Assembly: GCF_000731095.1 (NCBI RefSeq)
Contig: NZ_JMTZ01000032.1
Span: 1 to 64,000, forward strand
Length of the DNA stretch: 64,000 nucleotides
Origin: Lysobacter antibioticus
Lineage (GTDB): Bacteria; Pseudomonadota; Gammaproteobacteria; Xanthomonadales; Xanthomonadaceae
Reading direction: 5' to 3'
Shown: positions 11,603 through 14,142 of the stretch, piece after piece
Layout of the letters: each line of letters starts with the position of its first letter
How positions within the stretch are numbered: position 1 is the stretch's first letter
Notes under the pieces: model-generated
The model's database searches: none
Told to the model about the DNA's origin: nothing
The model's input: only the letters and a program-made list of their open reading frames with translations
Position numbers and translations under genes: made by a program

Positions 11603-11926
11603 ATGCGCGTTTCGCTGACCATCGTCGCTGCCGACGGGGCCGAACTTCCGGCCGGCAGCCCCGTGCGGGTGCAGTTGCGCGACACCTCGTTCGAGGACGC
11701 ACCGGCGCGCACCCTGCAGGAATGGCAGGCGGTCGTGCCCGAGCACGCCAAGGCCGTGCCGCTGAGCATCGAGATCGATACCAGCGCCGACGAAGCCACC
11801 TTTTGGGTCCACGTCGATCGCGACGGCGACCGCCGAGTCACCGTCGGCGACTACATCACCACCCGTGCCTACCCGCTGCGCACCGCCTCCGCCGAGATGA
11901 CCCTGGTCGTCAGCCGCATCGACTGA
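11603..11926 (+). CDS. Small beta-rich protein resembling the YbaY/T3SS-chaperone lipoprotein domain
   Basis: 107 residues with no signal peptide. The pattern VRVQLRDTSFEDAPARTL ... VPLSIEIDTSADEATFWVHVDRDGDRRVTVGDYITTRAYPL is that of the YbaY-type beta-sandwich domain (PF09619), which is usually found in lipoproteins; here no lipobox is present. Its 3' end overlaps the 3' end of the convergent ATP-grasp gene by 58 bases. Whether it works with that gene is unknown. Confidence 0.7.
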   Translation: MRVSLTIVAADGAELPAGSPVRVQLRDTSFEDAPARTLQEWQAVVPEHAKAVPLSIEIDTSADEATFWVHVDRDGDRRVTVGDYITTRAYPLRTASAEMTLVVSRID

Positions 11927-12867
11927 GCTCCGGCCAGCCATTCGGCCACCGCGCGCCCGATCGGCTGCCCGGTGCGCTGTTCGATGAAGAGGAATTCGCC
12001 GGCGGTGTTGATCTCGAAGAAGTAGTACTCGCCCTGCGGGGTGAGGCGCAGGTCGATCGCGCCGTACTCCAGGCCCAGCCGTTGCATCAGCGCCAGCAGC
12101 CGTTGCCGCAGCGGCAACGGCAGCGCGTGCTCGCGCACCGTCGCCGCGCCGAGGTTGGGACGGAAATCGATCGAACCCGGCACCGGGTCGAGCTTGATCT
12201 CGGCCGGGAACAAGCGCCCGCCGACCGCGGTGACGCGGATGTCGGCCGCGGCCGGCACGAACTCCTGGAAGATCACCGGCGCCAGCCTGACCGTGTCCAG
12301 GTGGGCGAGGTCGTCCTCGCCGAGCAGGCGCGTCTCGCGCCACACCGCATGGGTGCACGAGAAGGTCTTGTGCACGGTCGCGCCGGGCCCCAGCGCGTGC
12401 ACGAACTCGCGCACGCGCTGCGGGTCGGAACTGATCAGGGTGCGCGGCACCTTGAAGCCGAGTTCGGCGGCGATGCGCAACTGCGCGGCCTTGCGCGAGG
12501 CGGCATCGTCGCGGCCGGGCTCGTTCATCCAGCGCGCGTCGCCGAGCAGACGCCACAGGCCGTTGAGCGCCTCGTTCCATTCGTTGGCGGTGAACAGGTG
12601 CGCCTGCGCATCGGTGACCGAAGACAGGTCGGGCGCCTGCGGCCGGCGCCACCACACCGAGCCCACCTCGTCGAGCGCATGGCGTTCGCCGCCGGCGCGC
12701 GCATAGTCGATGCGCGGACGCGCGCCGTCGGCGTAATCGATCGAGAGCGTGGCGCGATCCGGAAACTCGGCCAGATCGAACAGCAATGCCGGTCGCTCCA
12801 TCGCCTGCAGATGGTCGAGCACGCAACGGGCATGGGCATCGGCTTGGTGCGAAATCAGCAGGATCAC
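11869..12867 (-). CDS. ATP-grasp ligase of the graspetide macrocyclase (MvdC/MvdD-like) type
   Basis: 332 residues. N-terminal pre-ATP-grasp domain (MILLISHQADAHA) with VWWRRP at 71-76, an element typical of MvdC/MvdD-type enzymes. The ATP-grasp core has QEFVPAAADIRVTAVG from 201, metal-binding AIDLRL at 270-275 and FFEINTAGEFLFIE from 283, with Glu285 and Asn287 as metal ligands. Family members form omega-ester or omega-amide links between side chains of a ribosomal peptide. It lies 15 bases downstream of the metallopeptidase gene in the same direction, and no separate short precursor peptide is seen. I infer that the Thr/Glu repeats of that peptidase are the substrate. A simple carboxylate-amine ligase role cannot be excluded. 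Confidence 0.85.
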   Translation of the reverse strand: MILLISHQADAHARCVLDHLQAMERPALLFDLAEFPDRATLSIDYADGARPRIDYARAGGERHALDEVGSVWWRRPQAPDLSSVTDAQAHLFTANEWNEALNGLWRLLGDARWMNEPGRDDAASRKAAQLRIAAELGFKVPRTLISSDPQRVREFVHALGPGATVHKTFSCTHAVWRETRLLGEDDLAHLDTVRLAPVIFQEFVPAAADIRVTAVGGRLFPAEIKLDPVPGSIDFRPNLGAATVREHALPLPLRQRLLALMQRLGLEYGAIDLRLTPQGEYYFFEINTAGEFLFIEQRTGQPIGRAVAEWLAGAQSMRLTTRVISAEAVRSG

Positions 12868-12882
12868 GGCACGCTCTCCCGG

Positions 12883-14142
12883 TCAGCCGTTGCCGCCGCC
12901 GGCGCCGGATTGGGCCAGTTGGGCGAGTACCGCGGCGGTTTCGTCGTATTGCGACTGCAGCGCGGCCCGGGCCATGTCGGCGCGGGCGAGTTCTTCGGCG
13001 AGCTGCTGCAACTGGGCATCGAGCGCGGCCACGGTGTCGGCGTTCTCGTCGCCGACGTCGCCGGCCGAGGTCGCCATCGCGAACGGCAAGGCGCCGCGCG
13101 CGGCCGGATTGACCAGCAGCGGCGGACGTCCCGGCAGGGTCAGGTTTTCGGCGATGGTCGGCCCCGGGTCGAAGATGCCTTCCTTGCGCGTGTCGGTGAC
13201 CTGCTCCTTGATCGTGTCGGTGATGATGTCCTTGCGGATTTCCTTGAGGGTGTCGCTGAGCTTGTCGCGCACCGCTTCCTTGATGCGTTCCTTGAGCGTG
13301 TCGGTGGGCGATTCCTTGATCGTGGTCAGCGGGCAGAACGAATTGACCGCGGCGATGTCGCCGGCCGACAGGCTGCTGCGCTGGCCGATCACCGTGCCCG
13401 GCGGCACCGCGCCGATCGGCACGATGGTGTCCTTGCCGTTGGACGAGAACGCGTTGCGCGGGTAATGCATGATCGAGCCGTAGTCGTAGCTGCCGATGTC
13501 GTCGCCGTCGCTGATGTGCTGGTTGAAATTGTGCTCGTAGCCGGCGGTGATGTTGGCCCACTGGATGCTCACGAACGAATCGCGGTCCTCGCGGCTCTGC
13601 TCGTGCCACAGGCCGACGACGTGGCCGATCTCGTGGATGGTGTTGCCGAGGCTGCAACTGCTGGCGAGGTTGACGAATTGCTGGCCGCCGCGCCGGCCGA
13701 CCTGGGCCGAGCAGCCGCTGCCGGGGCGGAAGGTCACGTAATCGGCTTCGGTGGTGCGCAGGATGAAGCGGAAGCGCGTCTTGGCTTCCCAATGCGCGAT
13801 CGCATCGGTGACGCGAGCCGTGTTGGGCAACGCCGGGTCGATGGTGTAGGGGATCCTGCAGCCGGGCCAGCGGAACTGCGAGCCGCTGATCGCCACGGCC
13901 ATCGCCACGCCCGAAGTGGATTCGGAGCGCAGCATGTCCGAGATGCGTTCGACCTCCTCGACCGTGCCGAGCACGATGTCGCCTTCGAACATCGCCATGC
14001 CGTCGATTTCGACGTACTGCACGGCCTTCGCGCGGAAGGTCTCGCCGCGGATCAACGCGGTGCGCACGGTGCCGCCGCCGCGGAATTCGCCTTGTTTGGC
14101 CGGCTTGGCTTTATCGCCGGCGGTGCCTTTCCTGGTTGCCAT
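12883..14142 (-). CDS. Astacin-type (M12A) metallopeptidase with C-terminal TxKE repeats
   Basis: 419 residues. Zinc motif HEIGHVVGLWHE at 170-181 (ligands His170, His174, His180; base Glu171) and Met-turn SIMHYP at 223-228 identify an astacin-family protease. There is no signal peptide; residues 1-25 are Lys/Gly-rich. After the catalytic domain come five copies of [T/D]-T-x-K-E, starting at residues 273, 281, 297, 309 and 317, spaced by multiples of four, within a charged helical region. Residues 366-412 look like coiled coil and the end is Gly-rich. The ATG at 14142 has GGAG upstream. The gene is followed 15 bases later by an ATP-grasp ligase, which suggests that the protease itself carries the modified core (inference). 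Confidence 0.88.
   Translation of the reverse strand: MATRKGTAGDKAKPAKQGEFRGGGTVRTALIRGETFRAKAVQYVEIDGMAMFEGDIVLGTVEEVERISDMLRSESTSGVAMAVAISGSQFRWPGCRIPYTIDPALPNTARVTDAIAHWEAKTRFRFILRTTEADYVTFRPGSGCSAQVGRRGGQQFVNLASSCSLGNTIHEIGHVVGLWHEQSREDRDSFVSIQWANITAGYEHNFNQHISDGDDIGSYDYGSIMHYPRNAFSSNGKDTIVPIGAVPPGTVIGQRSSLSAGDIAAVNSFCPLTTIKESPTDTLKERIKEAVRDKLSDTLKEIRKDIITDTIKEQVTDTRKEGIFDPGPTIAENLTLPGRPPLLVNPAARGALPFAMATSAGDVGDENADTVAALDAQLQQLAEELARADMARAALQSQYDETAAVLAQLAQSGAGGGNG

Follow-up and report, generated by a model that had tools for sequence, protein, structure and literature searches.

In the 64,000-nucleotide stretch of the Lysobacter antibioticus contig NZ_JMTZ01000032.1 analysed here (positions 1 to 64,000, hereafter the window), a gene for an M12A metalloprotease is directly followed by one for an ATP-grasp ligase of the graspetide type, and the protease ends in a tail that holds a repeat, a PFAMAT motif and a long helix. 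Related ligases elsewhere lie behind genes whose products carry a counterpart of this motif, on M12A proteases, on M43 proteases or on small proteins without a recognised peptidase domain, and the tail is absent from the examined proteases that have no ligase adjoining. From sequence comparison we consider it likely that these loci represent a carrier-independent, C-terminally guided graspetide system that acts on whole proteins. We lean, by a little, towards a more specific proposal, a mobile stapling module consisting of the ligase and a portable tail (repeat core, PFxxxTPH docking motif, helix) that has been joined, in two phyla, to three or more kinds of protein. If true, this module would be a natural C-terminally guided graspetide system that acts on folded proteins, and it would supply the substrate of a ligase branch previously without precursor.

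The protease of the window, its repeat and its ligase

The protease combines a Pfam Astacin match over residues 91-268 (PF01400, 162 bits) with a HExxHxxGxxHE zinc site, as expected of an M12A/LegP member, and it passes the LegP equivalog NF045530 (NCBIfam) by less than 2 bits (301.9 against a cut-off of 300). That model, which bears the name of a secretion-system effector, is also passed by the soil-bacterial proteins of loci L078 and L079, and the name LegP is probably over-broad for such proteins. The window protease was also considered as a Xanthomonadales type IV secretion system effector and rejected as such, no domain of this kind being among its Pfam matches. No signal peptide was seen in it by eye.

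Behind the catalytic domain the motifs TTIKE, DTLKE, DTLKE, DTIKE and DTRKE begin at residues 273, 281, 297, 309 and 317. Every one of their spacings (8, 16, 12 and 8) is divisible by four, as the motifs belong to a tetrad array that has Asp or Glu at every fourth residue from 272 to 323. More than one [TD]TxKE motif was obtained in none of 20,000 shuffles of the whole protein, and an equal periodicity in none of 100,000 shuffles. Three congeners have longer arrays, in proteins of 452 amino acids instead of 419, with a 12-residue super-repeat KxKE-APLD-TLKE. The PFAMAT motif that follows has counterparts elsewhere such as PFVLSTPHH, PFAVVTPHQ and PFSLAAPHQ, and the C-terminal helix block reaches a predicted local distance difference test (pLDDT) of 68-77 over residues 381-410 in an AlphaFold model that is poor overall.

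The open reading frame of the ligase starts 15 bases past the protease stop, on the same strand, and contains VWWRRP, QEFV and EIN. It has an MvdD-type pre-ATP-grasp domain (PF21068, 44.9 bits, cut-off 27) and its best NCBIfam score is to TIGR04187 (222 bits, under the cut-off of 350), followed by MvdC (179 against 425) and MvdD (171 against 475), so that it reaches no named subfamily cut-off. Six distinct PDB chains match it by sequence (5ig8, 5ig9, 9bou, 7m4s, 7mgv and 7drm), under the record names ATP grasp ligase (two), MvdD-like pre-ATP grasp domain-containing protein, AMdnB, CdnC and ATP-grasp domain-containing protein. We take 5ig8 and 5ig9 to be MdnB and MdnC, 9bou to be ThfB and 7drm to be PsnB; the matches thus appear to be graspetide-type ATP-grasp ligases. 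In nine ligases of the clade described below, WWRRPQ, DxR and ExNxAG are invariant. The same genome holds, outside the window, a second and distant graspetide-type ligase (L063, G000:C41:320-1099), which clusters with other ligases from the same genus, family and order.

A sequence-only reading of the window had given the same five motifs and spacings, the same 15-base distance and the same ligase motifs, all of them exact, and had described an astacin-type protease without signal peptide, which agrees with the Pfam match and with inspection by eye. It had overlooked that the repeats are tetrads, that a PFxxxT(PH) motif is present in the C-terminal part, that other carriers can take the place of the protease and that a YscW gene adjoins.

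Carriers of the tail, controls and distribution

Close relatives of the ligase occur at 15 loci in Lysobacter, Pseudoxanthomonas, Burkholderiaceae and Actinomycetota, the fifteenth (L080) being cut by a contig end; L005 and L006 have identical substrates in two genomes, and L077, the same contig as L005, was counted once. In all 14 complete loci the ligase gene is immediately preceded, on its own strand, by a gene that encodes a tail with the motif PF[VAS][LVMI]x[TA], located 37-87 amino acids from the C-terminus and after a Thr/Lys/Asp/Glu region. It is like the graspetide leader signature Phhx(1,2)h (PMC8939145, consulted in part), but is placed after the core, and the proposed substrates have 211-522 amino acids with the motif C-terminal to the repeat, instead of being small precursors with an N-terminal leader. 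Its variants are PFAMAT, PFAIAT, PFAVATPHE, PFAVVTPHQ, PFAVRTPHR, PFVLSTPHHS, PFVLATPHHS, PFSLAAPHQ and PFSLAAARQ.

The carriers are M12A proteases (PF01400) in the window, at L003, L004, L005, L006, L108 and L078 and in an Acidimicrobiia metagenome-assembled genome (L079), M43 proteases (PF05572) at L071, L081, L082 and L092, and small proteins at L083 and L104, which have no Pfam match over the cut-off. The repeats vary with the carrier, from [DE]TxKE tetrads or 8-mers in M12A proteins to TxxTxD in the M43 proteins of Burkholderiaceae and GTxxKFRDDP in that of genome G622, and a repeated core of Ser/Thr/Lys acceptors and Asp/Glu donors is present in the M12A and most of the M43 carriers. Similarity between M12A and M43 carriers is not significant by BLASTP (E 0.079, around the zinc site); both families are metzincins and are therefore not proven unrelated at the deepest level.

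By eye the small carriers are like the small proteins of L093 and L094, and hhalign found no similarity between them. The latter (L093:5498-5962 and L094:5471-5965 in reverse-complement coordinates, about 150 amino acids) precede ligases of 261 and 249 bits, end in a conserved QT[KR]SHx[SG]xDDG[IV]xCDSLD tail and are probably conventional graspetide precursors. At L100-L103, conventional-looking small precursors start with PF[AT]LNYARP, which resembles the tail motif but is N-terminal.

The homologous proteases examined away from such ligases lack the tail. We compared 11 M12A homologues without this ligase in the fetched flanks (7 of 18 plasmid records with 4 kb flanks and four weaker genome matches with 1.5 kb flanks, including L013, a second M12A protein of a genome that carries the ligase elsewhere), and none has the PF motif or a tetrad score of 10. 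The motif is likewise missing from all five M43 homologues without this ligase in the fetched flanks (5 of the 8 records other than Burkholderia), which are 55-59% identical over the aligned catalytic part, and in which 100-142 residues follow HExGH, as against 238-302 in the four linked M43 proteins. Around 48 loci with other graspetide-type ligases it occurs in 2 of 438 nearby same-strand open reading frames. Among distinct open reading frames of at least 200 amino acids the count is 4 of 456, a denominator that includes the substrates, and the L104 ligase is one of the four.

A tree was built from 65 ligases of at least 250 amino acids at 62 loci, L006 being left out (its ligase has 516.6 bits by the clade profile). 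The 14 clade rows are separated from the labelled mvdC, mvdD and tgmB rows by a branch with 98/94 support, and seven unlabelled rows (L059, L089-L091 and L093-L095) share their side. The subclades follow the carrier, with four M43 rows (100/98), eight M12A rows including the truncated L080 (100/98) and two small-carrier rows (98/79).

The spacing between potential acceptors and acids was compared with shuffled sequences in 10 of the 14 substrates, leaving out the near-duplicates L003, L004, L006 and L108. Lys followed by Asp or Glu at i+5 was counted 32 times in M12A carriers (shuffled mean 6.2, reached in 0 of 1000), 13 times in M43 carriers (3.3, 0 of 1000) and five times in the small carriers (1.4, 6 of 1000), and i+5 is the sole Lys offset common to all three carrier types. 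For Thr, enrichment was observed at i+5 in M43 carriers (19 against 5.4) and at i+3 and i+7 in M12A carriers. These counts would favour Lys to Asp/Glu lactams five residues apart as the linkage.

The loci came from several searches. In 149 genomes, that of the window included, the best candidates per genome were scored: a close homologue of the protease is present in the window's own genome and four congeners (G005, G008, G010 and G019), the ligase adjoins it in all five, and at close-homologue score neither gene was found without the other in any of the 149. Strict patterns run over a single genome for each of 84,980 species gave seven loci, one being that of a congener already found, and profile searches added loci in G622, G905 and G1520, further profile searches giving none new at that level; the genome searches together covered 1,958 genomes, with overlaps, again with the best candidates per genome scored. 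The plasmid search added a Burkholderia stagnalis locus, and no protease with these repeats and without ligase was found on plasmids, where the repeat query gave four weak records (best E 3e-4, for the Thermoanaerobacterium record H60 discussed below), the M43-tail query gave one strong record, which was the Burkholderia locus already known, and the other clade ligases had more than 40% identity, among the matches listed, only to that locus. A viral scan gave two distant ligases, and five proteins had no match in PADLOC at E up to 0.001. As these searches gave few loci, the system is rare and scattered. The sequence-only reading had proposed co-occurrence across Lysobacter and the placement of the ligase as checks, and neither, as far as it was run, spoke against its central claim, that the protease itself is the substrate of a dedicated graspetide-type ligase, the PDB matches and tree neighbours being graspetide-type ligases. 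Its interpretation as a whole is partly supported, the linkages and a purpose of controlling or targeting the protease being suggestions.

Neighbouring genes

Table 1. Coordinates of the protease-ligase locus in the window
Feature	Position	Strand	Basis
YscW-family small protein, convergent, overlaps ligase 3' end	11603..11926	+	PF09619 25.5 bits (cut-off 22.6)
ATP-grasp graspetide-type ligase, 332 amino acids, GTG start	11869..12867	-	PF21068, TIGR04187, PDB matches
M12A (astacin/LegP-like) metalloprotease, 419 amino acids, proposed carrier and ligase substrate	12883..14142	-	PF01400 162 bits; NF045530
C-terminal long helix / coiled coil, about residues 367-413	12904..13044	-	helix in otherwise poor AlphaFold model
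PFAMAT, residues 353-358, proposed C-terminal ligase-recognition motif	13069..13086	-	counterparts in other carriers
Proposed core, tetrad repeat x-h-[KTR]-[DE] with five [TD]TxKE motifs, residues 273-322	13177..13326	-	
Astacin catalytic domain (HEIGHVVGLWHEQ)	13339..13872	-	PF01400

Homologues of the YscW-family protein face the ligase gene in the four congeners and at L078, L108, L079 and L080. Another small protein is encoded upstream of the M43 carriers L071, L081, L082 and L092 (for instance L071:5090-5398 and L081:5088-5396, the L081 copy having no Pfam match); because it also stands beside M43 proteases without ligase (L109, L112 and L113), it goes with the M43 protease and not with the ligase. 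Conserved small open reading frames at 14.5-15.2 kb of the window were rejected as precursors, as they overlap a 272-amino-acid minus-strand frame that is 76-97% identical in congeners. The other neighbours look ordinary (MatE, Peptidase_S49, a short-chain dehydrogenase, an LPMO_10 protein and a topoisomerase), with the MatE transporter and the S49 peptidase lying near the locus on the other strand. Among the eight neighbouring open reading frames of the window that were searched, none was recognised as a graspetide exporter or as a leader peptidase.

On a plasmid of Pararhizobium gei (L044:3519-8771), a YscW-family protein, a tail-less LegP-like M12A protein and two further proteins, one caspase-like by eye and one phospholipase D-like, are encoded in a row. 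This row, which has no ligase, is possibly an enzyme cluster.

Interpretation and relation to known systems

In the reading that we favour, the ligase would bind the product of the preceding gene by docking on PF[AVS][LMVI]x[TA] in the C-terminal tail of that protein. It would join Lys, perhaps also Thr, side chains to Asp/Glu in the repeat N-terminal to that motif, so that several small loops would lie in succession between protease domain and C-terminal helix. Such a module would be independent of the protein to which it is attached, M12A here and an M43 protease or a small non-peptidase elsewhere. A docking role of the PF motif is suggested by its resemblance to the leader signature and by the case of ThfB, which is still guided by a leader that engineering has moved to the C-terminus (PMC13003496, consulted in part), and the cross-linking activity by the homology of the ligase. 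More speculatively, the stapled tail could be a stable latch or a built-in inhibitor of a protease without evident signal peptide, an idea for which the one ground is that the graspetides characterized by the time of PMC8939145 (partly consulted) were protease inhibitors.

A number of observations weigh against this reading. The six clade ligases tested have TIGR04187 scores of 222-268 bits, under the cut-off of 350, and the gap by which the clade profile sets the ligases of the 15 loci (393-524 bits) apart from every other ligase listed (at most 262) involves some circularity, nine clade members having been used to build the profile. Both the PF pattern and the i+5 offset were chosen after the sequences had been seen. 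Two of the M43 controls, from Rhizobium plasmids (L109 and L113), end in PFARAT with no ligase within 4 kb on either side; their C-terminal stretch, APFARATLG or TPFARATLG, falls outside the pattern and near the motif, and is an unexplained near-exception. An unlinked Thermoanaerobacterium plasmid protein (H60), a 495-amino-acid frame beside pilus-assembly genes, has a K/E tetrad array with neither motif nor ligase, and since its tetrad score is about as high as that of the window protein (14.2 against 14.4), such an array alone is not diagnostic. The clade is not perfectly exclusive either, because the long-branch ligase of L059 (241 bits) adjoins the small-carrier rows with no PF-tail protein beside it, the motif being present at that locus only in a 107-amino-acid frame about 2.7 kb upstream. 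The M43 and small-carrier loci yielded no YscW homologue. Lys offsets other than i+5 are enriched as well, at i+3 and i+4 in M43 carriers (11 against 3.4 each), at i+4 in the small carriers (5 against 1.5) and at i+1 and i+9 in the periodic M12A array. In L082, L083 and L104 the share of Thr, Ser, Lys, Asp and Glu is no higher in the core than in the N-terminal part of the same protein (0.23 against 0.26, 0.28 against 0.31 and 0.30 against 0.42, respectively), and the core of L082 has only three Thr/Ser. The AlphaFold models of the window protease and of a Paraburkholderia M43 carrier (pLDDT 42 and 31, from alignments that held just four and two sequences) were too poor to use.

The protease could instead be a maturation enzyme that carries its own precursor as a fusion and processes itself, the tail being cross-linked, cut off and released as a small graspetide. 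Two protease families do occupy the same position, and Makarova 2022 (PMC8939145, consulted in part) proposed that the peptidases of such loci supply the peptide, from other proteins. However, the small carriers L083 and L104 share tail and ligase with no recognised peptidase domain, and by eye there is no conserved cleavage motif between domain and repeat, so that we hold this explanation to be unlikely. Many graspetide ligases act on small peptides, and we give a still lower rating to the idea that an unlinked small precursor is the substrate here, the repeat and helix of the protease being a structural or adhesive tail only. The neighbour listing took open reading frames of at least 100 amino acids, small genes could escape it in some loci, and group 32 of Carter 2026 has diverse neighbouring proteases and RODEO-predicted precursors (PMC13097080, consulted in part). 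The tail, however, accompanies the ligase across three carrier types, and the conserved small neighbours fit badly: YscW goes with M12A loci only, the M43 companion is independent of the ligase and the frames at 14.5-15.2 kb overlap a gene.

Two further explanations concern the chemistry. A ligase that adds amino acids to the tail without closing loops, like the glutamylating RimK of a related family, appears very improbable and was set aside on family scores, for the RimK-type model TIGR00768 gives 35 bits (cut-off 143) and the MvdC, MvdD and TIGR04187 models give much more (171-222 bits), and all six PDB matches appear to be of graspetide type. Cross-links could also form between chains, if the coiled-coil-like C-termini assembled the proteases and the ligase welded their tails into a covalent polymer, and ThfB can cross-link assembled protein chains (PMC12291112, consulted in part). 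This too we regard as highly improbable, given that acceptors and acids are regularly spaced, with an enrichment of short offsets, as local loops predict.

If ligation of whole proteins is the correct reading, graspetide chemistry would no longer be confined to small peptides, and a testable substrate would be at hand for a type of ligase locus in which none could be predicted (Makarova 2022). A portable ligase-stapled tail would be of use in protein engineering, and what it does on proteases could point to a new control of proteolysis. In the titles and starts of abstracts that were listed (supplements and most subscription journals being outside the scope) we did not find a proposal of a peptidase as precursor, by which novelty is not proven.

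Branch 7 of Makarova 2022 comprises, in the consulted part of that paper (PMC8939145), peptidases of several unrelated families, often with YscW and with no precursor found. By gene content the locus of the window is probably of the same kind, with peptidase, ATP-grasp ligase and YscW side by side in the M12A-type loci; the difference is that the peptidase was proposed there to supply peptides of other proteins, whereas here its own tail is the proposed substrate, and a whole-protein system probably explains those loci with a peptidase and no precursor. Group 32 of Carter 2026 may contain these loci as well.

The microviridin and TgmB/ThfB (TIGR04187) graspetides share with the system proposed here the ligase family, Thr/Lys acceptors and Asp/Glu donors that are often repeated, and a P-h-h motif, but their substrate is a small peptide, whereas here it would be a folded enzyme or other protein with the motif after the core. 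Corallotide (CorA/CorB, group 15; PMC13097080, consulted in part), a five-repeat graspetide with confirmed KxxxD (i+4) isopeptides, comes closer in its large precursor, its several Lys-Asp isopeptide repeats and its TIGR04187 synthetase; it differs in the i+4 linkage, against the i+5 favoured here, and in an extra oxygenase, and no enzyme domain in the precursor is described in the consulted part of that paper. In the fuscimiditide precursor ThfA1 with a C-terminal leader, or follower (PMC13003496, consulted in part), the core precedes the recognition sequence that guides ligation, as proposed here. That arrangement was engineered whereas the present one appears natural, which suggests that the C-terminal guidance engineered in 2026 could already be in use in nature.

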